Under the pieces are notes generated by a model. It ran no database searches, was not told where the DNA came from, and saw only the letters and a list, made by a program, of their open reading frames with translations. Below, in pieces: positions 49,988 through 64,000 of a stretch of 64,000 nucleotides of DNA; the first letter of the stretch is position 1, and each line of letters starts with the position of its first letter. Made by a program: the position numbers and the translations under genes. This stretch comes from Telluribacter humicola (GTDB taxonomy: Bacteria; Bacteroidota; Bacteroidia; Cytophagales; Spirosomataceae). Where the stretch lies: positions 62,001-126,000 of the forward strand of contig NZ_JAFIQT010000005.1 of assembly GCF_017355935.1 (NCBI RefSeq). Direction: 5' to 3'.

Positions 49988-51556
49988 TCACCGGATATAC
50001 TCGTTCCATCCGGCATAACGTTGTGTGACAGGTCCGAGGGGTAAAGCCAGTGCTGCTACGGCCAGTCCAAGTACTACTCCGGCGATATTCAGGCCGACGG
50101 GGCTGTTGTCCAGGAACCAGGGAGCAACCGCCACCGCAAGTCCCAGCAGGATGTTGATATAGCGGCCCAGCCGCATAGGTTCACCCATGCTGATGACTGA
50201 CACTACCACGATCAGTGAACCACCCAGATGGAAAATATCCGCGGGGTTAGCTTTGATTGGTACTCCCAGTATACCCGGTGCAAATACCATGGCTGCTCCC
50301 AGCAGAGTAGCTACTGACAAAGTCCACGGAAAACTCATTCCCCAGATGGATGAAGCGTATACAGCCGCTGGCTTCTGCGGAAATGCCATCAACTCAGGCG
50401 CTTCGTCTTTTTCGTCACTTTCAATAGTACCTCCCTTCCAGAATACTTTCCAGAACTTCTCACCCTGCTTCATCTTTTTTTTCATAAACTGACCCATGGC
50501 GATCACCTCATCTACTTCCAGCGGAAGCATGGGGAGCATGATGGCCGCGGCCAGTAAGCAGAAGGTACACCAGGCTCCTACCACCACCGGCTGACTGATA
50601 ACCAGGAAAATATGCACCAGCCCCAGTGGAATTACCAGAATACCAAATATAGCCACCATCCAGGGCATAGTACGCCAGCGGGCCGGACTGCCCATCCATC
50701 CCATCAGAAATTCGAACGTATAGGCAATGGCTCCCAGACCGGCGTCTGAGATTGGCATAGAATGCGACATACTGGAGTTGAGTACCCGCTCACTCTGCTC
50801 TCCAAAAAATGGGTCCCACACGGAGTCGATGTAGCCGAGCTGAAAGGCTGCCAGATAGCGGGATACGATCCAGCCCAAAAAACCAAGTACCATCATGATC
50901 CAGCGCTGCGGCCAGCTGGATGGATTATAGCTCCAGCCCGGAGGTGTAGCGGGCCCCATCTTCATGTACATGATCATATTGGGCATACCCGGTATAAGTA
51001 TGGTAAGTGCTATGATAAGCGCTCCAATGAGGGTATCGTTATAGTAGGCAACCGCCGTCGGTGACCAGAACAGGATCGGGGCCATCGTGAGCCAAATACC
51101 TACAAAGCAGCAAATCCATAGGCTGATGGGGCGGTTGGGTGTAAGGCCACGCCAACCGAACAGGATCAGTAGTACCCCACTGATGATATCACTCCACTTC
51201 ATGAACAGGATGCGCTGGTCCAGCGTAAGCCACACGCTGCGGCCGCCCGATGGCTGTACTGTACCAATGCCGTAGTCGAAAGTAAGGGGAGAAAATACCA
51301 TCCAGAATCCCAGCAGGACAATCATCCAGTACACCCAGAGGGTCTGCATGTGGTGCATGTGGAGCATCTGGGTACGCATGTCGTCGGACATCATCATGCT
51401 GTGACCTTCTCCTTTATTATGCTGATGTTCACTCTCATTATGCATGTCTTCGTTGTGCTGTCGTATTTCCTTCTCGGCCATGGGACGCGTTACACCACGC
51501 ATTCCCATGCTCCTGTTCTTCATTCCACCTTGCTTTGATTCTTTATCGTGCTTCAT
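49988..51556 (-). CDS. SPW-VKOR-SPW fusion membrane protein, paralogue 2, Met/His-rich N-terminus
   Basis: 522 residues. Residues 32-70 are a Met/His-rich stretch (HNEDMHNESEHQHNKGEGHS then MMMSDDMRTQMLHMHHM), likely metal-binding. Residues 73-190 are SPW-type helices (FSPLTFDYG...FMKWSDIISGVLLI; APILFWSPTAVAYYNDTLIGALII). Residues 220-345 are the VKOR-like domain with W-C330-TF-C333, and residues 400-505 repeat SPW-like helices. Against paralogue 1 the central part is nearly collinear (GYIDSVWDPFFGEQSERVL; RWRTMPWMVAIFGILVIPLG). No second Cys pair of the canonical VKOR relay is present. It is followed by an HMA protein gene. I infer a disulfide or copper-linked redox role; no function is established. 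Confidence 0.85.
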   Translation of the reverse strand: MKHDKESKQGGMKNRSMGMRGVTRPMAEKEIRQHNEDMHNESEHQHNKGEGHSMMMSDDMRTQMLHMHHMQTLWVYWMIVLLGFWMVFSPLTFDYGIGTVQPSGGRSVWLTLDQRILFMKWSDIISGVLLILFGWRGLTPNRPISLWICCFVGIWLTMAPILFWSPTAVAYYNDTLIGALIIALTILIPGMPNMIMYMKMGPATPPGWSYNPSSWPQRWIMMVLGFLGWIVSRYLAAFQLGYIDSVWDPFFGEQSERVLNSSMSHSMPISDAGLGAIAYTFEFLMGWMGSPARWRTMPWMVAIFGILVIPLGLVHIFLVISQPVVVGAWCTFCLLAAAIMLPMLPLEVDEVIAMGQFMKKKMKQGEKFWKVFWKGGTIESDEKDEAPELMAFPQKPAAVYASSIWGMSFPWTLSVATLLGAAMVFAPGILGVPIKANPADIFHLGGSLIVVVSVISMGEPMRLGRYINILLGLAVAVAPWFLDNSPVGLNIAGVVLGLAVAALALPLGPVTQRYAGWNEYIR

Positions 51557-52031
51557 CAGTAAGTGTATTTGTAATTAGATTCAAGGTTTCTTCCGGGATT
51601 AAAGCGAGAATTAATCCTGAACCTCTGTGAGAAAATGCTTATCAGTGGCTGGTTTGGAAAGCCAATCACTCTAAGCTTGTTACAATCCTGTACCGGGTGC
51701 AGTCGTTCTTCTTCCCCCTTTGTTCAATCTGAGATGTCCTGTGTACTTTAGACAACCCATGGTGCCTTAGCGTAAATGTGTGAAGCCTGTATATCAATAT
51801 GATAATCTGGTAAAAAACCATTCCATAGGTGGAGCAGCAAGTAGGCAGTAGCTAATTTTATTCAGGTAAATAACTACGGCATGATTCACCTGAGTACTTA
51901 CCCAATCCCGAATACTCGGAGCTATGTATTGTACTAATTTGTTGGAAAGCCGCCATGGAAATCCAATGAAACAATAGGTGCAGGAGCGGGTTTATTGATT
52001 GTATCTTTTGTTTAACTTAACTCCAAGTACA
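51557..52031. other. Divergent intergenic region
   Basis: About 475 bases between the VKOR-like and copper-storage-like genes. A TATCTTTTG stretch near 52001 resembles a -7 box for the latter. No gene or RNA recognised. Confidence 0.45.
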
Positions 52032-52370
52032 ATGACAAGCGATAAGTTTCAATCTTGTATTCAGGCCTGCCAGGAGTGTGCCGTGATGTGTAATCAGTGT
52101 ATGGATGCCTGTTTGAGTGAGGATGATGTAAAAATGATGGCTGCGTGTATCCGTCTGGACCGTGACTGTGCCAACATTTGCTTTACTGCTGTGGAGTTCA
52201 TGTCAAGCAACAGCCAGTTCTCTGCCCAGATCTGCGAACTCTGTGCTCAAATCTGTGAAGCCTGTGGAGCTGAGTGTGCCAAGCACGAAGCCGACCACTG
52301 CAAGCGCTGCGCTGAAGCATGTCGTCGTTGTGCTAAAGAATGCCGTAGTATGGCCTCAATGGCTGCCTGA
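52032..52370 (+). CDS. Four-helix bundle Cys-rich copper-storage-like protein (Csp/DUF326)
   Basis: 112 residues with 19 cysteines placed on one face of each helix in CxxxC and CxxC spacing (CIQACQECAVMCNQCMDAC; CELCAQICEACGAECAKH; CKRCAEACRRCAKEC). This matches the Csp family, whose bundles hold many Cu(I) ions. The lack of a signal peptide indicates a cytoplasmic Csp3-type store. I chose the ATG at 52032, which puts the first helix directly after the start; a TTG upstream would add an odd hydrophobic leader. It is monocistronic and ends in a strong terminator. Confidence 0.9.
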   Translation: MTSDKFQSCIQACQECAVMCNQCMDACLSEDDVKMMAACIRLDRDCANICFTAVEFMSSNSQFSAQICELCAQICEACGAECAKHEADHCKRCAEACRRCAKECRSMASMAA

Positions 52371-55869: not shown

Positions 55870-56673
55870 TTACTTTACCGTTTTGGTTTTGACTTCTTCT
55901 AACCAGTTTTGCTGAATCGCCGAAAGGTACTCACTCTTGTTCCAGGTATCTACTGAGCTGTTGTAGTTAGGATCTTTGATACAGATCAGGGTTTCGTCGT
56001 GTGGTTTGGCAGATACTTCAAAACCAGTAGATCGTAACATAGCCCGCATAGCACTTTCGTTAGCCAGCCACCAGTTAGTAGGGTCTCCGGCAAAGCTATG
56101 TTCTATAAAGGCCATCTTGGGCCACTCCGGCTTAAGCAGATTCTCACGATCATGAATGTGGCTGTCGTACACCTCTTCTGTAGGTAGTTCACCGGGCATG
56201 GTAAGGGTCTGGAACACTATCATGTGCCTGCACTTGCGACCCAAAATGTCCAAAGCCAGTAACGGGTACCGCAAGTGGTAAAAAACGCCCATAAACCAAA
56301 TCAGGTCAAACTCTTCTTTTAACCGAGCCAGATCATATACCTGCATCTGCTTGTACCGGATCTGATCCTGCAAGCCGAAACATTCGGCCACCCACTCTGC
56401 CTGTTGCAGGTAGTGTGCATCTACATCGATACCTAGTACTTCCGCGCCCCGCTTAGCCAGCTCTATACTATAGAACCCTGCATTACACCCAACATCCAGC
56501 ACTTTCTTTCCTTTCAGATCTTCGTGAATGGAGGGAGCTAATTCCTTCCACTTGAAGGAAGGAAAATCACCCAGAAAATGGTCCGGAGCTGTCTGTGTAC
56601 CATCGGGTAAATGTATATTGTGGAACCAGGGACCTAGTTGCTTTATCTTCTCCTGATAATTCATTTTATCCAT
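55870..56673 (-). CDS. SAM-dependent methyltransferase, CmoB-like, of the glycosyltransferase cluster (TIGR04290-like)
   Basis: 267 residues. SAM-binding motif I is KVLDVGCNAGFYSIELAKRGAEVLGIDVD, followed by YKQMQVYDLARLKEEFDLIWFMGVFYHLRYPLLALDIL, a pattern shared with CmoB-like enzymes. N-terminal PWFHNIHLPDGTQTAPDHFLGDFPSFKW and C-terminal WWLANESAMRAMLRSTGFEV are typical of a methyltransferase family which, from memory, is TIGR04290. It is the last gene of a tight minus-strand operon and overlaps the preceding glycosyltransferase by 8 bases. It probably methylates a sugar or carboxylate on the product. Confidence 0.87.
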   Translation of the reverse strand: MDKMNYQEKIKQLGPWFHNIHLPDGTQTAPDHFLGDFPSFKWKELAPSIHEDLKGKKVLDVGCNAGFYSIELAKRGAEVLGIDVDAHYLQQAEWVAECFGLQDQIRYKQMQVYDLARLKEEFDLIWFMGVFYHLRYPLLALDILGRKCRHMIVFQTLTMPGELPTEEVYDSHIHDRENLLKPEWPKMAFIEHSFAGDPTNWWLANESAMRAMLRSTGFEVSAKPHDETLICIKDPNYNSSVDTWNKSEYLSAIQQNWLEEVKTKTVK

Positions 56674-57763
56674 TTATCGTTGTAATCTCTTTCTTCGCTT
56701 TCAGCTCCTCCGCATAGCCTATTAGTTGCTTCGCCCGCTGCACCGAAGTATGCTCTTTCAGTACGCGCTGTCGGGACTTTTCGCCGATCTCTTTGCGGGT
56801 ATGTTCATCCATCTCTTTCAGGTACCTGAGCGTATCGGCTGCTTCATAGGATACCAGTATCTCCTCATCAAAGCTGAAAACAGTATCCAGCCCATCCCAG
56901 TAGTCTGATATGATAGGTACACCACAGGCAGCAGCTTCGAATAACCTTACGCTGGGCGAGTAGCCTGCCTGGATCATATCCGCCCGGGTAATATTCATGG
57001 TAAAGCGTTGGGTATTGTAAAACTGACGGTGCTTCGAAGGGGGCAGATGGTGCGTGTGCGCGACATTAGCAGGCCATTGTATAGTTTCCGGGTACTGTGG
57101 GCCTACCACGGCAAAACGACCCTCCGGCCAAGCTTGGGCGGCATCAATCATCAGCTTCTCCAGGGATGGCTGACGGTCGGGGCTGTATGTACCCAGGTAC
57201 CCCAGGTCATACAGTACTGGTGTGTCTTCGGGGTAGTACAAATCTGTGTCGAAGGAACAGTAAAGAGGTTTCGCGGATGGCGAGCTAAATACTTCTTCCA
57301 ATCTATCCAGGGTTGGCCCCCCTGTAAATGATAGATACAGGTCGTAGCCCGGTATAAGATACGGATGCAGGTACTCATAATCCTCCCTTTTCAGCTTGGC
57401 GAGGGTGACGGGGGTATCAATGTCATAGAAAGCTTTGATTCCCTGCGCCGATTGCTGTACCCATTTCCCTACTTCCACCCCTTCGGGTACGTAGGAACCA
57501 ACTATGACCATATCGGCCTCAGCTACTACGGATTCGTAGTTCCGCTTCAACTCCTCCAGGGTTGAGTACAGGTCCAGTTTACAATAGGGGGGAGCGGGCA
57601 TATCGCTGTTGCTGGCGTACCAGGGGACATCCCGTTCCAGGAAATGTACCCGATGCCCCTGCTGCTGAAGTTGCTTGATCAACGCCCTGAAAGTAGTGGC
57701 GTGGCCATTGCCCCAGGAAGAGGTAATGGAAAGACCCAGGATGGTGATGTTCCAGGATTTCAT
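56666..57763 (-). CDS. CgeB-like glycosyltransferase, tandem copy 1
   Basis: 365 residues, GT-B fold. The N-terminus ITILGLSITSSWGNGHATTFRALIKQLQQQGHRVHFLERDVPWY and the C-terminal nucleotide-sugar region SPSVRLFEAAACGVPIISDYWDGLDTVFSFDEEILV match the CgeB group. The N-terminus aligns with the next two genes (xxSxxxxWxxGxAxxxR), so the three are tandem paralogues of 365, 368 and 370 residues. It overlaps its upstream neighbour by four bases and its downstream neighbour by eight. Donor and acceptor are unknown. Confidence 0.87.
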   Translation of the reverse strand: MKSWNITILGLSITSSWGNGHATTFRALIKQLQQQGHRVHFLERDVPWYASNSDMPAPPYCKLDLYSTLEELKRNYESVVAEADMVIVGSYVPEGVEVGKWVQQSAQGIKAFYDIDTPVTLAKLKREDYEYLHPYLIPGYDLYLSFTGGPTLDRLEEVFSSPSAKPLYCSFDTDLYYPEDTPVLYDLGYLGTYSPDRQPSLEKLMIDAAQAWPEGRFAVVGPQYPETIQWPANVAHTHHLPPSKHRQFYNTQRFTMNITRADMIQAGYSPSVRLFEAAACGVPIISDYWDGLDTVFSFDEEILVSYEAADTLRYLKEMDEHTRKEIGEKSRQRVLKEHTSVQRAKQLIGYAEELKAKKEITTING

Positions 57764-58866
57764 GACAGCACCTCCTTTCGGTTGGTCTTGAGGTTTTTCA
57801 TGAAAAGAGCCTCCGCCAGTTGTGCCCGCTGGGCGTAGGTATGATCCTTGAGTACCCGCTCGTAGGCCGCCTTGCCAATCTGAGCGGCCCGCTCGGGTGT
57901 GAGCGTAGCCATGATCTGAGCTACCTCGGCTCCTGTTTCAGCTATAAGGATCTCGGTATTGGGTTCAAAGAACATCTCGATTCCCTTCCAGTGATCCGTG
58001 ATGATACAGGCACCGGCTCCGGCGGCTTCGAATACCCGGGTAGCCGGTGAAAAACCATACTTCGCCATACTGTCGCGGCTGATGTTCAGGACAGCCATGG
58101 AGGTACAGTTCAGGGCATTATGATCTTTGGTGTACACATGCCCCAGGTACTTGATGTTTGCCGGCATGGGCTTGTCGTGCCATCCATTACCACCCAACAT
58201 AAAGCTCTTCTGAGGGAGAGAGGCAGCCGCTTTAATGAAAAACTCCTCCACCCGCTGCTCCCGGTCAGGCAGGCGATTACCCAGGAATGCCAGATGACAG
58301 TCAAAAGCCGGATCCCGCTCGACGGGATGATGAGTCTCTGGGTCAAGGGCATTATAAACGGGTATACAGGCTTTGGCTCCCATGGCAGTATACGCCTCTA
58401 CTACCGGATCGCCACCACCGTAGGTGAGTACAAGATCGTATTTTTTGACGTGTTCCCGGAAAGCATCATTAGGGTCATTTTGCATGCGATCCAGCGTAGC
58501 CGGGGCATCCACGTCCCAGAAGATAATAAGCTGATCTTCCCCGGCCAGCTGCGGAATACGCTCTTCCAGGTACTCATCGAATACACCAATGCCACTGGTC
58601 TTGATGAGGATATCAAATTCGGGTGTACGGGTCAGTACCGCTTCCAGAGCTTCCGTGGTGGCATCATAAACTACCGAGGTGGCCCAGTCTACATCGGGCA
58701 GGTCACGGTGTTGCTGCCGTTCGTAAGCATCTGGCTCAAAGAAAGTTACCTGGTGTCCTAGTTTATGAAGTTCCTTGATGATGCCACGGTAGTAGGTGGC
58801 AGCTCCATTCCAGTAAGCTGATACGAGGCTCGATCCAAAGAAGGCTATTTTTAGTGGCTGTTTCAT
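57760..58866 (-). CDS. CgeB-like glycosyltransferase, tandem copy 2
   Basis: 368 residues. N-terminal IAFFGSSLVSAYWNGAATYYRGIIKELHKLGHQVTFFEPDAYERQQHRDLPDVDWA and C-terminal SPATRVFEAAGAGACIITDHWKGIEMFFEPNTEILIAETGAEVAQI place it in the same family as its two neighbours. A middle segment IPVYNALDPETHHPVERDPAFDCHLAFLGNRLPDREQRVEEFF is the usual inter-domain part. It is coupled to the downstream copy by ATGA overlap and starts six bases after the upstream copy. It presumably adds one residue of the glycan. Confidence 0.87.
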   Translation of the reverse strand: MKQPLKIAFFGSSLVSAYWNGAATYYRGIIKELHKLGHQVTFFEPDAYERQQHRDLPDVDWATSVVYDATTEALEAVLTRTPEFDILIKTSGIGVFDEYLEERIPQLAGEDQLIIFWDVDAPATLDRMQNDPNDAFREHVKKYDLVLTYGGGDPVVEAYTAMGAKACIPVYNALDPETHHPVERDPAFDCHLAFLGNRLPDREQRVEEFFIKAAASLPQKSFMLGGNGWHDKPMPANIKYLGHVYTKDHNALNCTSMAVLNISRDSMAKYGFSPATRVFEAAGAGACIITDHWKGIEMFFEPNTEILIAETGAEVAQIMATLTPERAAQIGKAAYERVLKDHTYAQRAQLAEALFMKNLKTNRKEVLS

Positions 58867-58872
58867 GAGGAG

Positions 58873-59985
58873 TCAGATTTTGATTGCAGATGGTTCCTGT
58901 TGTTTCAGTTGCTCATACACTTCCATTAGTTCATCGACCCGATGGACGCAGCTGTGCCGGTTTTGGATAGTTTTAAGGCCGTTTTCCGCCAGTGATGTAG
59001 CCAATGAAGAGTCATTCAATACCTGCTTCATTTTTTCTTTCATCTCCCTTCCATTCGCAACCGTCAGGTAATCCTGACCCGCGTTGAAAAGATGCTCGGC
59101 ATCCTGCCAGGGCGCACTGATAAGCGGAATCCCGCAGGACATAGCTTCGAAGGGGCGAATGGTAGGTATACCGGGGAGTGACCGGGTGTAGGGGCGCCGG
59201 GGAACGTGAATAGTAAAGCGGTAATTTGCAAATACCGAAGGTACCTGGAAGGAGGGTAAGTACCCTCCGTATTCGATACCGGCATCCGCCAATAGTTTGA
59301 GCGCCTCATCGGGGTACCTTACTCCGTACATTTTAGCCTTCAGTCCCAGCTCTTTCACCGGCTCGATCAGGAACTCAATCAGCTCCTCGGTGCGCTCGTC
59401 GTCGCCCCAGTTGCCGATCCATACCAGATCTCCTTCTTTTTCGACACCTTCCATTGGGTGGAACAGTCGCGTGTCGGCGGCTTCGTGCCAGGTCCAGGCC
59501 TGCTTTACCCACCCTTTTTTCTGATATATATTCTTTATGACTTCACCGTACGCCAATACTCCATCGTAGTTGCTGAGGTCGTAGTTAGACATACTCTGCT
59601 CTTCGGTGACCGATCGGTGATGGGTATCGTGGAAGAGCAGTTTGTAATCGTACTCCTTCTTCAGGTTACCAACCAGCTTTACCAAATCGTGATCATTCCA
59701 CTCGTGTACCAGTACCAGATCCGCATCCTGAAGGTACTTTCCGAGCTCCGGGTTAGACGGATCATACATCTCGGACGAAAGGGTAGGGTAGTTTTCTTTG
59801 AATTCAGTATATACCTTTTCTCCACTTTCGCTCAACAAATTTGAAAGACTCCATCCACCTTTGGGTTCCAGTATGGTGACCTGGTAGCCACGATCTATGA
59901 GCTCAGCCGACACCCCCCTTAGAAAATGGGCGTTGCCGTGGTTCCAGTCAGATAATAAAGAGTGGTAGAATAATACGATTTTCAT
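58873..59985 (-). CDS. CgeB-like glycosyltransferase, tandem copy 3
   Basis: 370 residues. IVLFYHSLLSDWNHGNAHFLRGVSAELIDRGYQVTILEPKGGW opens the acceptor domain; the donor domain has GDLVWIGNWGDDERTEELIEFL and LPGIPTIRPFEAMSCGIPLISAPWQDAEHLFNAGQDYL. Compared with the other two copies it is the most divergent at the C-terminal motif (IRPFEAMSCG). It is separated from the GT4 gene by 39 bases and from copy 2 by six, within the same operon. Confidence 0.87.
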   Translation of the reverse strand: MKIVLFYHSLLSDWNHGNAHFLRGVSAELIDRGYQVTILEPKGGWSLSNLLSESGEKVYTEFKENYPTLSSEMYDPSNPELGKYLQDADLVLVHEWNDHDLVKLVGNLKKEYDYKLLFHDTHHRSVTEEQSMSNYDLSNYDGVLAYGEVIKNIYQKKGWVKQAWTWHEAADTRLFHPMEGVEKEGDLVWIGNWGDDERTEELIEFLIEPVKELGLKAKMYGVRYPDEALKLLADAGIEYGGYLPSFQVPSVFANYRFTIHVPRRPYTRSLPGIPTIRPFEAMSCGIPLISAPWQDAEHLFNAGQDYLTVANGREMKEKMKQVLNDSSLATSLAENGLKTIQNRHSCVHRVDELMEVYEQLKQQEPSAIKI

Positions 59986-60024
59986 GTATGGCTGGGTTAG
60001 TAACAGTCTTTTTTGATAAGCTAA

Positions 60025-61179
60025 TTAAGTATTAGGTAGCGTCACGGATTTTGCCGCACTCTTTGGCGCAGTAAGCCTAGGAGCATTTAGCAACTCCTCG
60101 TACTTTTCCAGGTAGAGGTTAGCCATGCGCTTGGTAGTAAAGGCTTTGGCCCGAATGGCGGCCCGCTCGGCGTATTTCTTCCGGAGTTCAGGGCGTTGGA
60201 TAAGCGTTTCAAGGGTGTATTTGAGCGCTTCCAGATTACCGGGCTCTACAAAGAAAGCCGCTCCGATCCAGTTTTCCCGGAGGCTGGGTATATCTCCCAG
60301 TACCAGTGTACAACCTGCGTGGGCTGCCTCGAGAATGGACAAGCCAAAAGGTTCGTAACGCGCGGGCAGGGCATAAATAGAGGCCTTGGCCAGCCAACCA
60401 TTTACTTCATCCTGATCCAGTTTGCCGGTGTAGGTGACATTAGTGAAGGTCGAGTTCTCGGATGAGCCAGGTACTGCATCATCGCCGGCGATGACTACCG
60501 GCCAGGAAAGATCACCCGCCACGCGGTTCAGAGATTCTATATTCTTGGCGCTATCCCACAAGCGTCCCATACTGAAAATGACATCTTGTTTTTCGTCGCG
60601 TTCGATGGTTACCGGTTCGCCCCCATTTGGAATGACGATCTTGTTGGCTAGTTCACCATAGATCCGGCTAATGGACTGCAGCATATCCCGACTGGGAGCC
60701 ACTACGAGGTCAGCGGCCTGTAAGCCTCTCTGTACCCGGGTAAAGTATTCCTGGTAGTGCTCAGGAGGTGTAGAGCCAATCACATTTTCCCACCACGAGA
60801 ACACGCAGGAATGGCACACCATCATGACCGGTGCTTTCCAGTCCAGGTGGCCGTGGCAGTAGTTATTCAGGTGGATGAGGTCCGGATTGATCAGTTTCTG
60901 GAGGTCCATCAGCCACGGACCGGCCTTATCGACTCCCTCCCAGGGGTTTTCCATCCACTCAAGGGCATAGTCGCTTGAGTGCAGGGTCAGGTTAGGGATC
61001 TGAGCCGCCTGTTTTTTCTGCTTTTCGTTGGGCAGACTACCCATGGTGGCCAGATAGACCTGAACGTTGAATTTAGCCAGTGCTTTGGCAAGATTCAGGG
61101 AATAGGTCCAAACACCGCCTACGGTATCAGCGGTCATTAATATACGGCGAGGGTACTTGAGATAGCTATTTTCTTCCAT
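60025..61179 (-). CDS. GT4 family glycosyltransferase
   Basis: 384 residues. The acceptor domain starts RRILMTADTVGGVWTYSLNLAKALAKFNVQVYLATMG. The donor domain carries VIFSMGRLWDSAKNIESLNRVAGDLSWPVVIAGDD and the GT4 signature ARYEPFGLSILEAAHAGCTLVLGDIPSLRENW. It retains the E-x7-E pattern (EPFGLSILE). The C-terminal tail (APKSAAKSVTLPNT) is disordered-looking. Its start overlaps the Gfo/Idh/MocA gene by 14 bases, so they are coupled. It belongs to the glycan operon; the sugar donor is not known. Confidence 0.9.
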   Translation of the reverse strand: MEENSYLKYPRRILMTADTVGGVWTYSLNLAKALAKFNVQVYLATMGSLPNEKQKKQAAQIPNLTLHSSDYALEWMENPWEGVDKAGPWLMDLQKLINPDLIHLNNYCHGHLDWKAPVMMVCHSCVFSWWENVIGSTPPEHYQEYFTRVQRGLQAADLVVAPSRDMLQSISRIYGELANKIVIPNGGEPVTIERDEKQDVIFSMGRLWDSAKNIESLNRVAGDLSWPVVIAGDDAVPGSSENSTFTNVTYTGKLDQDEVNGWLAKASIYALPARYEPFGLSILEAAHAGCTLVLGDIPSLRENWIGAAFFVEPGNLEALKYTLETLIQRPELRKKYAERAAIRAKAFTTKRMANLYLEKYEELLNAPRLTAPKSAAKSVTLPNT

Positions 61180-62158
61180 AAATCTTGTCCATTATTTCTG
61201 CTACTTGTTCTACTGATTCAATATCGGTGTCAAATCCGCTTCCTTCGGCCAACTTGCTGGTCCAGTCTACGATGGCCCGGCCCCCCCATTCGTCGGGGCC
61301 TGCAAACAGGATTTCGGTACGTGTACCGTAGAAGCGGGCTACTTCAAATTCATAAAAAGATCCGTTGATGTTCCGGAAGGAGGCTCCTCCCTGTGACCCA
61401 TACACGTTGAAGTATATTTCGGCTTCTTTTCCGGCGGGCAGGTTCCAGGAGCAGCTAAGCCGAAGGGAAGCCCCCTCCTCCGTCTGCATCAGAGCCGTTG
61501 CAAAATCTTCTACTTTGGTATCATGATTGGTAAGGGGCTCACCCTTAGAGAAAAGTACGGAAGAAAGTACCTCCACCTTCGGATTGCCCAGCGTCCAGAG
61601 GGCCAGGTCCAGCAGGTGTACACCCAGGTCAATGACGCAGCCACCACCCGATAGCTCCGGATCGTAGAACCAGGGCTTGTCGGGGCCATAAGCGTTATGG
61701 AAGCACATTTCGATGGCGTATATCTTTCCAAGTTCCCCTTTCTGTACCAGGTTGTGGAGGAGCCGGTAACAGGTGTACCGGTACGAGAAGTCAATTCCCA
61801 GCAACAGGTTAGCTTCCCGGGCAGCCTTGACCACGGCGGCGGTTTCTTTGGTGGTACGGCCCAGTGGCTTCTGACAGAAAACCGCCCGTCCTGAACCAAT
61901 AGCATCCAGAGACTGGGACGCGTGCAGGGCACTGGGAGTAGCTATGACAATGCCATCCAGCTGGTGACCCAGTAACTCTTCGTAGGAGGAACAAAAATCG
62001 GCCTCCGGAGCGCTGGCTTTGGAGGCTTCGATGTTATCAACAGAGGGATCAGCAATGCAGGTAATATTGGCAATGCCGGTTTTGGCAACGGCTTCCATGC
62101 GGTTTCTACCTATCCAGCCAACCCCTAAGAAACCAATTTCTAAATTTTTATTTTCCAA
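61166..62158 (-). CDS. Gfo/Idh/MocA family oxidoreductase
   Basis: 330 residues. The Rossmann motif is IGFLGVGWIGRNRMEAVAKTG; the catalytic Lys sits in VFCQKPLGRTTKE, a variant (QKP) of the usual EKP; and the His/Asp region is GGGCVIDLGVHLLDLALWTLG. These enzymes oxidise or reduce sugar hydroxyls with NAD(P). In this operon it could make the modified nucleotide sugar or oxidise a ring hydroxyl. It starts 12 bases after the zinc dehydrogenase stop and overlaps the GT4 start. Confidence 0.9.
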   Translation of the reverse strand: MENKNLEIGFLGVGWIGRNRMEAVAKTGIANITCIADPSVDNIEASKASAPEADFCSSYEELLGHQLDGIVIATPSALHASQSLDAIGSGRAVFCQKPLGRTTKETAAVVKAAREANLLLGIDFSYRYTCYRLLHNLVQKGELGKIYAIEMCFHNAYGPDKPWFYDPELSGGGCVIDLGVHLLDLALWTLGNPKVEVLSSVLFSKGEPLTNHDTKVEDFATALMQTEEGASLRLSCSWNLPAGKEAEIYFNVYGSQGGASFRNINGSFYEFEVARFYGTRTEILFAGPDEWGGRAIVDWTSKLAEGSGFDTDIESVEQVAEIMDKIYGRK

Positions 62159-62170
62159 TGGTCAGGCGGG

Positions 62171-63184
62171 TTATTTTGTGTTCAGGATTAGTGCTTTCAC
62201 AAAGCCTTCGGGAGCCTCCTGATGAGTCTTGAACGCTTCGTTGATTTCAGAGAGTGAAAAGGTGTGCGTGTACAAGGGAGTAGGATCAAGTATACCTGAT
62301 TCCACAGCCAGAACCGCCTTGCGGATCCCTTCAATGTACATCTCCACATCACGCTCGTGGGCATTGATCACATCCAGTCCGCGCCAGTTCCAGAGCTGTA
62401 CATTTACCTGACGCATCCCATCCTGATGAAAACCCGCAATGACTAATTTGCCACGGATACGGGTCAGTTCGCCGGCCAGGTTGAGTGGCCACTCCTTGCC
62501 GGTACACTCGATGACGCGGTCACAGAACTCACCATTGGTAAGCTCATTCACCTTGTTGATAATCTGGTAATGATCGTCCATGGCTATGGTTTCGTCCGCA
62601 CCAAACTGCCGCGCCAGGTCCAGTGATGAGCTCCGGCGGGAAAAAGCGATCACACGTGCTCCGGCTCCTTTGGCTAACTGAACTAACAAGGCACCCAAAA
62701 ATCCAACGCCAAGGATAGCGACGGTCTGGCCGGCGCGAATGTCGCTTCGGTTAAAGATGTTCATGGCGCAGCCCAGGGGCTCTCCGGGGAATGGGAGCCC
62801 GTTAAGCTTCGCAGGAAGCTTAACGGCCTGAGTGGCGGGTGCATAATCATACTCACCGAAGGCATTATAGGAGAGTACTGCTACGCGATCACCTACCTGA
62901 AAATCCTGTACGTTAGTACCTACGGCGTATACCGTACCCCATCCTTCGTGACCGGGGTTGCCGGCCTGTACAGGGTACTGAAACCATTCCCGACCTTCCC
63001 ATACTGGTAGGTTGGAAGAGCATAGGCCACAACCCTCTAACTTGATACAGATCTCATCATCAGCGGGAGGACGCAGGGGTACTTCTGATATTTCAATTGA
63101 TTGGGGAGCCGCTATAACCGCAGAGCGTCCCGTTCGTTGATCTAAGCTGGATAGAGCAGGTCTAGTTTGTACTTCGGGTATCAT
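62171..63184 (-). CDS. Zinc-type alcohol dehydrogenase (MDR superfamily)
   Basis: 337 residues. The catalytic zinc region is EGCGLCSSNLPVWEG (Cys52, Cys55) with GNPGHEGWGTV (His79, Glu80) and the GxxxG nucleotide motif VAILGVGFLGALLVQLAKGAGARVIAFSRR. The usual structural-zinc four-Cys lobe is absent, which places it with the smaller sugar- or polyol-oxidising MDR proteins. It is likely to act with the Gfo/Idh/MocA protein on the same carbohydrate, either making a keto-sugar precursor or dehydrogenating the aglycone. It starts seven bases after the epimerase-like gene ends. Confidence 0.9.
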   Translation of the reverse strand: MIPEVQTRPALSSLDQRTGRSAVIAAPQSIEISEVPLRPPADDEICIKLEGCGLCSSNLPVWEGREWFQYPVQAGNPGHEGWGTVYAVGTNVQDFQVGDRVAVLSYNAFGEYDYAPATQAVKLPAKLNGLPFPGEPLGCAMNIFNRSDIRAGQTVAILGVGFLGALLVQLAKGAGARVIAFSRRSSSLDLARQFGADETIAMDDHYQIINKVNELTNGEFCDRVIECTGKEWPLNLAGELTRIRGKLVIAGFHQDGMRQVNVQLWNWRGLDVINAHERDVEMYIEGIRKAVLAVESGILDPTPLYTHTFSLSEINEAFKTHQEAPEGFVKALILNTK

Positions 63185-63191
63185 ACAAGTT

Positions 63192-64000
63192 TTATGTTAG
63201 GGCAACTTTTTTTGGTTGATCATTATATTTGACGAGCCAGTGGTACAGCTTCTCCACCCCTTCCCATGCCGTTACGCGGGGCTTCCATCCGGTCTCGGTC
63301 TGGAAGCGGGTAGTGTCTGATACATAGTATCGCTGATCACCCGGACGCCACTGGTCAAAGTTTACCTCTATTTTCTCTCCGTGTAGCTCCTGAATGTGAT
63401 CAATGAGCTGTAACAAACTAATGGTATTGGCAGGACCTCCACCCATATTGAAGGCTTTTCCATTCAGATGATCCATCTGCTCGCGAACCATCAGCATGGC
63501 TTTGATAAGGTCCTCAACAAACAGGACATCGCGTACCTGCTTGCCATCTCCGTAAATGTTAATGGGCTGGCCCTGCAGGGCTTTCAACAGGAAGTGCGCG
63601 ATCCAGCCCTGGTCTTCGGTACCAAACTGGTGGGGCCCGTAGATGCAGCTCATCCGGAACACGACTGCTTTCAGGCCATAGGTACGTACATAATCCAGGA
63701 TATAGCTATCGGCGATACCTTTGGAGCAGCCGTAGGGACTATGGAAATCCAGCGGACGCAGCTCACTAATGCCACTGTCGCGGATCAGTGGCTCCTCGGG
63801 TTCATATCGGTTATTCTTAATAACAAGTTGTAGATCTTCTAAACCTCCATATACCTTATTAGTAGAGGTAAATAGCAGCGGGGGCTGATGGGATGACATG
63901 CGGATCGCTTCCAGTACATTGAGTGTACCACGGGCATTGACGTCGAAGTCCATGACCGGCAGGTTACAGCTCGTAGTAACGGCTACCTGTGCCGCGAAGT
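63192..64000 (-). CDS. NAD-dependent epimerase, CDP-paratose 2-epimerase-like (partial at right edge)
   Basis: The frame is open at the right edge; the N-terminal Rossmann motif lies outside. The first visible residues, FAAQVAVTTSCNLPVMDFDVNARGTLNVLEA, are the NAD-site region; an internal Met 16 residues further on is not the start. The catalytic SPYGCSKGIAD (Tyr-x3-Lys) and the signature CIYGPHQFGTEDQGWIAHFLLKALQGQPINIYGDGKQVRDVLFVEDLIKAM match CDP-tyvelose/paratose 2-epimerases (RfbE). It should epimerise a nucleotide sugar, feeding the glycosyltransferases downstream. It is the first visible gene of the operon; further genes may lie to the right. Confidence 0.9.
   Translation of the reverse strand, partial: FAAQVAVTTSCNLPVMDFDVNARGTLNVLEAIRMSSHQPPLLFTSTNKVYGGLEDLQLVIKNNRYEPEEPLIRDSGISELRPLDFHSPYGCSKGIADSYILDYVRTYGLKAVVFRMSCIYGPHQFGTEDQGWIAHFLLKALQGQPINIYGDGKQVRDVLFVEDLIKAMLMVREQMDHLNGKAFNMGGGPANTISLLQLIDHIQELHGEKIEVNFDQWRPGDQRYYVSDTTRFQTETGWKPRVTAWEGVEKLYHWLVKYNDQPKKVALT

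Follow-up and report, generated by a model that had tools for sequence, protein, structure and literature searches.

A conserved nine-gene glycosyltransferase and methyltransferase operon in Telluribacter humicola and many other bacteria, possibly for a small soluble glycoside

The window analyzed here is a 64,000-nucleotide stretch of the Telluribacter humicola genome (NCBI RefSeq assembly GCF_017355935.1; 6.56 Mb), corresponding to positions 62001-126000 of the 363-kb contig NZ_JAFIQT010000005.1. At its right end lies an operon of nine minus-strand genes spanning 10.5 kb, from window position 55870 to computed position 66344 when the contig is read past the right edge. The genes occur in the order E-HS-A-O-GT4-c-b-a-M on a single strand, and neighbors overlap or lie no more than 39 bases apart. 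The initial annotation had described eight such genes running off the edge; the close spacing and the common strand are confirmed, but the count rises to nine once the contig is extended rightward. The genes are listed below, with positions beyond the window computed.

55870..56673, minus strand: M, S-adenosylmethionine (SAM) methyltransferase of the TIGR04290 family, 267 amino acids (aa), last gene of the operon (NCBIfam TIGR04290)
56666..57763, minus strand: a, CgeB-like glycosyltransferase, 365 aa (PF13524, E 2.6e-36)
57760..58866, minus strand: b, CgeB-like glycosyltransferase, 368 aa (PF13524, E 3.1e-40)
58873..59985, minus strand: c, CgeB-like glycosyltransferase, 370 aa (PF13524, E 6.8e-33)
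60025..61179, minus strand: GT4 glycosyltransferase, 384 aa (PF00534, PF13439)
61166..62158, minus strand: O, Gfo/Idh/MocA oxidoreductase, 330 aa, TTG start (PF22725, PF01408)
62171..63184, minus strand: A, zinc-binding alcohol dehydrogenase, 337 aa (PF00107, PF08240)
63192..64000, ending at computed 65192 (L002:8193-10193), minus strand: HS, 666-aa fusion, second gene of the operon, with its C-terminal part in the window
computed 65226-66344 (L002:10227-11345), minus strand: E, GalE-like short-chain dehydrogenase/reductase (SDR), 372 aa, first gene of the operon, outside the window

Pfam bears out the families first proposed for these genes: three CgeB-like glycosyltransferases, a GT4 glycosyltransferase, a Gfo/Idh/MocA oxidoreductase, a zinc-binding alcohol dehydrogenase, and an SDR epimerase. 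The methyltransferase had been likened to TIGR04290, and M indeed matches that model with 338.2 bits over residues 7-231 of 267, above the curated cut-off of 300. The gene at the window edge had been read as a plain SDR; it does contain an SDR half, but the whole protein is a fusion of a glycoside hydrolase-like TIM-barrel domain (H) with a CDP-tyvelose-2-epimerase-like SDR (S). E starts 33 bases beyond HS. GT4 and b have no useful relative among solved structures.

A scan of genome contigs for M returned at least 560 relatives, and the 80 best loci among them were retained. Adding the window locus and five plasmid loci gives 86 loci in all; 65 of them extend 9 kb or more upstream of M and are referred to as full loci. 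All nine core genes are found in the same order on one strand in 45 of the 65 full loci (the window's and 44 of the 64 others), a conservation of gene order beyond chance, and the GT4-c-b-a-M block is present in 57. Homologs detected by tblastn in the full loci number 65 for M (by construction), 64 for a, 63 each for b and c, 61 for GT4, 55 for E, 54 each for A and O, 52 for S, and 33 for H; part of the misses are loci truncated by the 10-kb flank, such as that of Rufibacter. Genome-wide searches covered 33 operon-bearing genomes, the window's and 32 selected from the 80 contig loci, and detected S at E 1e-50 in all but two (31/33; not in G322 and G326). The gene-order comparison bears out the earlier expectation of a gene set shared by rhizobia and many other bacteria, and it is near certain that a conserved biosynthetic system exists.

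The methyltransferases of 84 of the 86 loci were placed in a tree, L061 and L110 being left out owing to a stop in the read stretch. They carry 13 phylum labels, which were taken from titles, often of metagenome bins, and nine rows have no label. The labels require 19 changes on this tree, where the minimum possible is 12, and the row of the window stays unresolved. M was also found on 133 of 72,556 plasmid records, mainly rhizobial (tblastn E 1e-30), and the Sinorhizobium meliloti copy of the operon sits on pSymB. A TIGR04290 protein above the cut-off occurs in only one of 296 sampled Bacteroidota genomes, namely that of the window, and in one of 250 sampled Burkholderiales genomes; this rarity indicates that the operon is not a housekeeping system. 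The operon is a fixed gene unit with a patchy distribution, probably spread by horizontal transfer. As a separate observation, Ramlibacter ginsenosidimutans (G310, behind L078) has two TIGR04290 genes above the cut-off, on contigs C21 and C5.

The N-terminal half of HS has no Pfam or NCBIfam match. The sole solved relative of H found by sequence is PslG, a weak match (E 0.007). NEP and TETG motifs are visible by eye in H, NEP and TE being the two glutamate motifs of clan-A glycosidases; both motif glutamates are invariant in all 24 fusion homologs, and no signal peptide is apparent by eye. The window's own part of S matches the solved CDP-tyvelose 2-epimerases 9rl0 (E 4.7e-68) and 1orr (E 2.7e-63), and in a model of the Nafulsella homolog the S half superimposes on CDP-tyvelose 2-epimerase with 42% identity, Z 43.1, and a root-mean-square deviation of 1.7 over 328 residues. 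By sequence and modeled fold S belongs to the CDP-tyvelose 2-epimerase-like SDRs, with its activity predicted.

Thirteen loci encode a stand-alone hydrolase-like protein, x (L036, L037, L053, L054, L057, L071, L076, L079, L085, L094, L096, L104, and L112; for example L036:12786-13712), in which the glutamate pair is kept in 9/9 proteins. Residues 113-290 of H align with residues 2-184 of x (E 1e-24) and residues 10-111 of H with residues 196-295 of x (E 2e-17), so that the two pieces are swapped. A profile of the 24 H domains matches native x as two pieces in swapped order in 9/9 cases and computationally rotated x as one continuous piece in 8/9; in the remaining case, L104, the rotated protein is still split but in the order of H. 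The shuffled controls listed for this comparison score below 0. In the AlphaFold model of x (mean predicted local distance difference test score, pLDDT, 81.4; predicted template modeling score, pTM, 0.84) a TIM barrel begins with the NEP strand, while in that of the Nafulsella fusion (pLDDT 82.9, pTM 0.81) the NEP strand is the fourth. The swapped alignment pieces and the strand positions in the models indicate that x is a circularly permuted form of H. A fold search with the x model returned many TIM barrels and no stand-out family (top Z 13.4), and the match list of the Nafulsella fusion model was filled by its SDR half.

When the 33 operon genomes were compared with an alignment of x, 16 were found to have x, and 15 others have H, matched in two pieces. 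Two genomes (G300 and G301) contain x and H together, and G325 has x with an H-like piece; G299 has a partial H only, and G327 has neither. A search of the open-licence literature for such a circular permutant listed papers that, by title and abstract, concern other families. If the pathway proposed below is right, the pair would illustrate, unusually, how a single enzyme has been remodeled naturally in two ways within one pathway.

The best NCBIfam hits of the two dehydrogenases, both far below cut-off, are inositol dehydrogenase for O and scyllo-inosose dehydrogenase for A. The closest solved chain to O is DgpA (E 2e-25), a glycoside 3-dehydrogenase. A is present in 32 of the 33 operon genomes and missing in that of the cyanobacterium Kastovskya (G299), which is also the only one to encode a TIGR04295 B12 radical SAM protein (740 bits, above cut-off). 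Similarly, the Azospirillum locus encodes a TIGR04295 protein (705 bits, above cut-off) and has neither A nor O within 24.8 kb. This mutual exclusion of A and TIGR04295 points to the radical SAM enzyme as a substitute for the step of A, perhaps also that of O, in these two cases, and hence suggests that the step may be an epimerization. A B12 radical SAM protein had been expected as a regular partner of the methyltransferase, which is not what we find: radical SAM matches occur in 3/65 full loci, and the genome of the window has no TIGR04295 gene at E 1e-40. One of the three matches, in L067, reaches only 27% identity and was rejected as TIGR04295, its genome (G306) being negative for that family. 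Nor is the oxidized product first proposed borne out, as A and O may instead epimerize.

A second set of associations concerns inositol and xylose. Because PF07994 missed mycothiol-type inositol-phosphate synthases, PF01658 was used, and it detected a synthase in 19 of the 33 operon genomes. These include 16/16 genomes with x and 3/17 without it (Fisher p 1e-6; this and the p values below ignore shared ancestry); all three of the latter come from actinobacterial loci. Among Burkholderiales, PF01658 is found in 8/8 carriers examined and in 1/249 other genomes (p 2e-14); the sample of 250 contains two positive genomes, one being its single operon carrier. The synthase adjoins the operon in 13/65 full loci on the tblastn map, and the open reading frame (ORF) map adds L058 and L102, neither of which has H. 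H (33/65) and the synthase (13/65) never share a full locus, but this exclusion does not extend to whole genomes: G300 and G301 have H, x, and the synthase; the actinobacterial G320 and G326 have H and the synthase; and G325 has x, the synthase, and an H-like piece. The linked synthase is of the mycothiol INO1 type (527 bits to TIGR03450, whose cut-off is 638; closest chain of known structure 1gr0, 476 bits), and in x-type loci it is accompanied by a histidine phosphatase and the GT4.

A UDP-xylose-synthase-like protein is encoded in 32/33 operon genomes and linked to the operon in 11/65 full loci; in the genome of the window it lies on another contig (52% identity). It is present in 8/8 Burkholderiales carriers and in 42/249 other genomes of that order (p 1e-6), and in 7/8 of the carriers its gene lies within about 3 kb of x. 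These links suggest that inositol and xylose are components of the product in x-type lineages.

Regulatory sites were sought with the motif GGAAC-N15-18-GTT, the EcfG consensus. Comparable EcfG sites are given in a published study (PMC6599016). All nine rhizobial loci, including those of two S. meliloti strains, contain the motif on each strand of the intergenic region that separates the divergent genes A and E, with a spacing of N17 throughout except for some N18 sites in S. sojae. The S. meliloti ml56 locus has 15 sites where 2.35 are expected and the R. acidisoli locus has nine where 2.13 are expected (0/100 shuffles in each case). In rhizobia these motifs fit the EcfG/RpoE2 general stress regulon and suggest use of the operon under general stress. 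Neighbors of the S. meliloti cluster are annotated as nutrient-deprivation-induced, BON-domain, and DUF4142 proteins. The cluster is presumably numbered SMb2024x, the support for which is a sugar-binding protein named SMb20231, and a literature search with SMb202xx gene names found no paper on it. Sigma-54 control was considered and rejected as a general mechanism: a regulator of that kind is found near the operon in 7/86 loci, but a -24/-12 motif upstream of E reaches p 0.01 in only 2/41. Also beside the S. meliloti cluster (L120:18849-25429) are sugar ABC transporter genes, which might take up a related sugar, together with a LacI regulator and a GH172-type gene.

In the window, the operon is flanked on one side by genes for a LysR regulator, a reductase, a ferredoxin, and a DUF2911 protein and on the other by genes for an MPAB-type oxygenase, an amylase-family enzyme, and AI-2E transporters. 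No ORF of at least 120 aa is found for about 1.3 kb upstream of the operon (L002:11346-12629; computed 66345-67628), beyond which the MPAB-type gene lies on the opposite strand. Pfam recognizes no flippase, polymerase, ligase, or export gene among the nine operon proteins and ten flanking proteins, in line with the earlier view that the locus is not an O-antigen or capsule locus, and the scanned neighbors are unrelated to surface polysaccharides. Elsewhere in the window, a VKOR domain protein with SPW repeats (49988-51556) adjoins a DUF326 protein (51999-52370). Frequent additions to x-type loci are a pyruvyl transferase and an FrhB-like protein (L037, L048, L053, L054, L057, L058, L076, and L120), and the Paracoccus and Rufibacter loci have a GT9-like protein. 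Also recurrent in x-type loci is protein Z, of about 570-585 aa (L036:13754-15508, L079:5496-7217, and L120:5375-7123), which Pfam does not match and for which no meaningful relative of known structure was found; by eye it contains phosphoribosyltransferase-like and kinase-like stretches.

Taken together, the conserved genes in their fixed order, their distribution and variants, the associations, and the rhizobial motifs lead us to infer, tentatively and at somewhat short of an even chance, that the operon makes a cytosolic, small, soluble O-methylated oligosaccharide or glycosylated cyclitol that serves cells facing stress, for example desiccation or high salinity. E and S would tailor nucleotide sugars, and where UDP-xylose synthase is linked it would provide UDP-xylose. 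GT4 would begin a chain on a small acceptor and the three CgeB-like transferases would lengthen it. O and A may jointly epimerize or oxidize one carbon of a sugar or cyclitol, a step apparently carried out by the B12 radical SAM enzyme in the rarer variant. The TIGR04290 enzyme would methylate a hydroxyl, capping or decorating the product, and the glycoside hydrolase domain, as fused H or stand-alone permuted x, may trim or rearrange a glycosidic bond. In x-type lineages the acceptor is probably myo-inositol from the adjacent synthase and phosphatase; in the type of the window it would have another source, or a different small molecule would serve. Four transferases without recognized carrier-lipid, flippase, polymerase, or ligase genes suggest that the product is small, and on these predicted functions a small soluble compound rather than a polymer is likely, whereas the stress-protectant role is about an even call.

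Several observations weigh against this explanation. Profile searches find no inositol-phosphate synthase in the genome of the window, and it is also absent from 11 of the 14 other H-only genomes; an inositol acceptor therefore cannot be general, was rejected for the lineage of the window, and the likeness to inositol glycoside pathways is limited to x-type lineages. The association tests all ignore shared ancestry, and the family assignments given to O, A, and x are approximate. Among the loci tested the stress motifs are confined to rhizobia, being not significant in the Azospirillum and Paracoccus loci and lacking in L115; Bacteroidota use other promoter types. The MsbA-like ABC exporter found in 4/86 loci and the pyruvyl transferase of some x-type loci would better suit a surface or exported glycan. 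Finally, the search that found no description of the nine-gene operon covered the open-licence literature only; TIGR04290, TIGR04295, and Rta_06860 are likewise not mentioned there.

We put forward with more reserve a fuller version of the stress-glycoside explanation. Here a phylum-spanning pathway would exist in two interchangeable forms, one with the fusion and without a linked inositol synthase and one with the permuted hydrolase and an inositol synthase and phosphatase, with a radical SAM enzyme replacing the dehydrogenase step in places. Its products would be methylated pseudo-oligosaccharide protectants like the galactosyl cyclitols of plants, under general-stress control in rhizobia. 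If this is correct, stress physiology has overlooked a conserved sugar compound produced by many bacteria of soil, desert, and saline habitats and by the model rhizobium S. meliloti.

Alternatively, although we consider it unlikely, the operon could decorate a surface glycan or build a glycolipid head group that strengthens the envelope. Glycosyltransferases, SDR epimerases, and methyltransferases are usual in surface-glycan loci, and PslG, the one solved relative of H, comes from a secreted polysaccharide pathway; the pyruvyl transferase and GT9-like protein of some x-type loci and the occasional MsbA-like exporter are consistent with this. However, no flippase, polymerase, ligase, acyltransferase, or phosphoglycosyl transferase was recognized in the core genes and recurring neighbors examined (flanks of the other loci were not scanned gene by gene), and the association with inositol synthase fits poorly.

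Quite improbable, in our view, is a specialized metabolite, such as a pseudo-oligosaccharide signal or antibiotic built with a logic akin to that of inositol-derived aminoglycosides. Inositol synthase, two dehydrogenases, several glycosyltransferases, an O-methyltransferase, and the B12 radical SAM enzyme of the variant would suit such a compound, as would the patchy spread and the 133 plasmid records, but Pfam finds no aminotransferase among the nine genes, no resistance gene was recognized, the EcfG-type promoters point to stress, and the nine genes vary far less between phyla than is usual for such clusters. An ordinary O-antigen, capsule, or exopolysaccharide fragment, which the gene families alone would allow, is very improbable, being largely refuted by a gene order held across many phylum labels, where surface-polysaccharide loci vary between strains; the flanks in the window are also unrelated.

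The stress-glycoside pathway that we favor resembles several known systems in part. TIGR04290 (meth_Rta_06860) and TIGR04295 (B12_rSAM_oligo) are hypothetical-equivalog models that name two proteins of unknown role, with no nine-gene operon in the model names. The M of the window scores above the TIGR04290 cut-off, but its genome has no TIGR04295 gene, unlike the Azospirillum locus and the Kastovskya genome. The S domain is like CDP-tyvelose 2-epimerase (1orr, 9rl0) in sequence and fold but is fused to a hydrolase-like domain, and no tyvelose or paratose genes were recognized in the operon. With PslG, a GH39-type glycosidase of Psl polysaccharide, H shares the two conserved glutamates of the NEP and TE motifs; it differs in the weakness of the sequence match, in having no signal peptide by eye, and in being fused to an epimerase or, as x, circularly permuted. 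The apiose operon of X. pisi differs in its GT90 and GT2 enzymes (PMC6193724), and aminoglycoside-type clusters differ from the operon in that the latter has no aminotransferase.

The mycothiol pathway starts with INO1, the GT4 enzyme MshA, and a phosphatase, and x-type loci likewise have a mycothiol-type INO1, a histidine phosphatase, and a GT4. However, the GT4 of the window scores 29 bits to MshA, where the cut-off is 462.5, no thiol genes were recognized, and the operon has three extra glycosyltransferases and a methyltransferase. Plants make galactosyl cyclitols and methyl-inositols such as ciceritol and pinitol. By analogy only, the operon would, like the pathways to these compounds, combine inositol synthesis, O-methylation, two-step redox epimerization, and glycosyl transfer in a drying-protectant.

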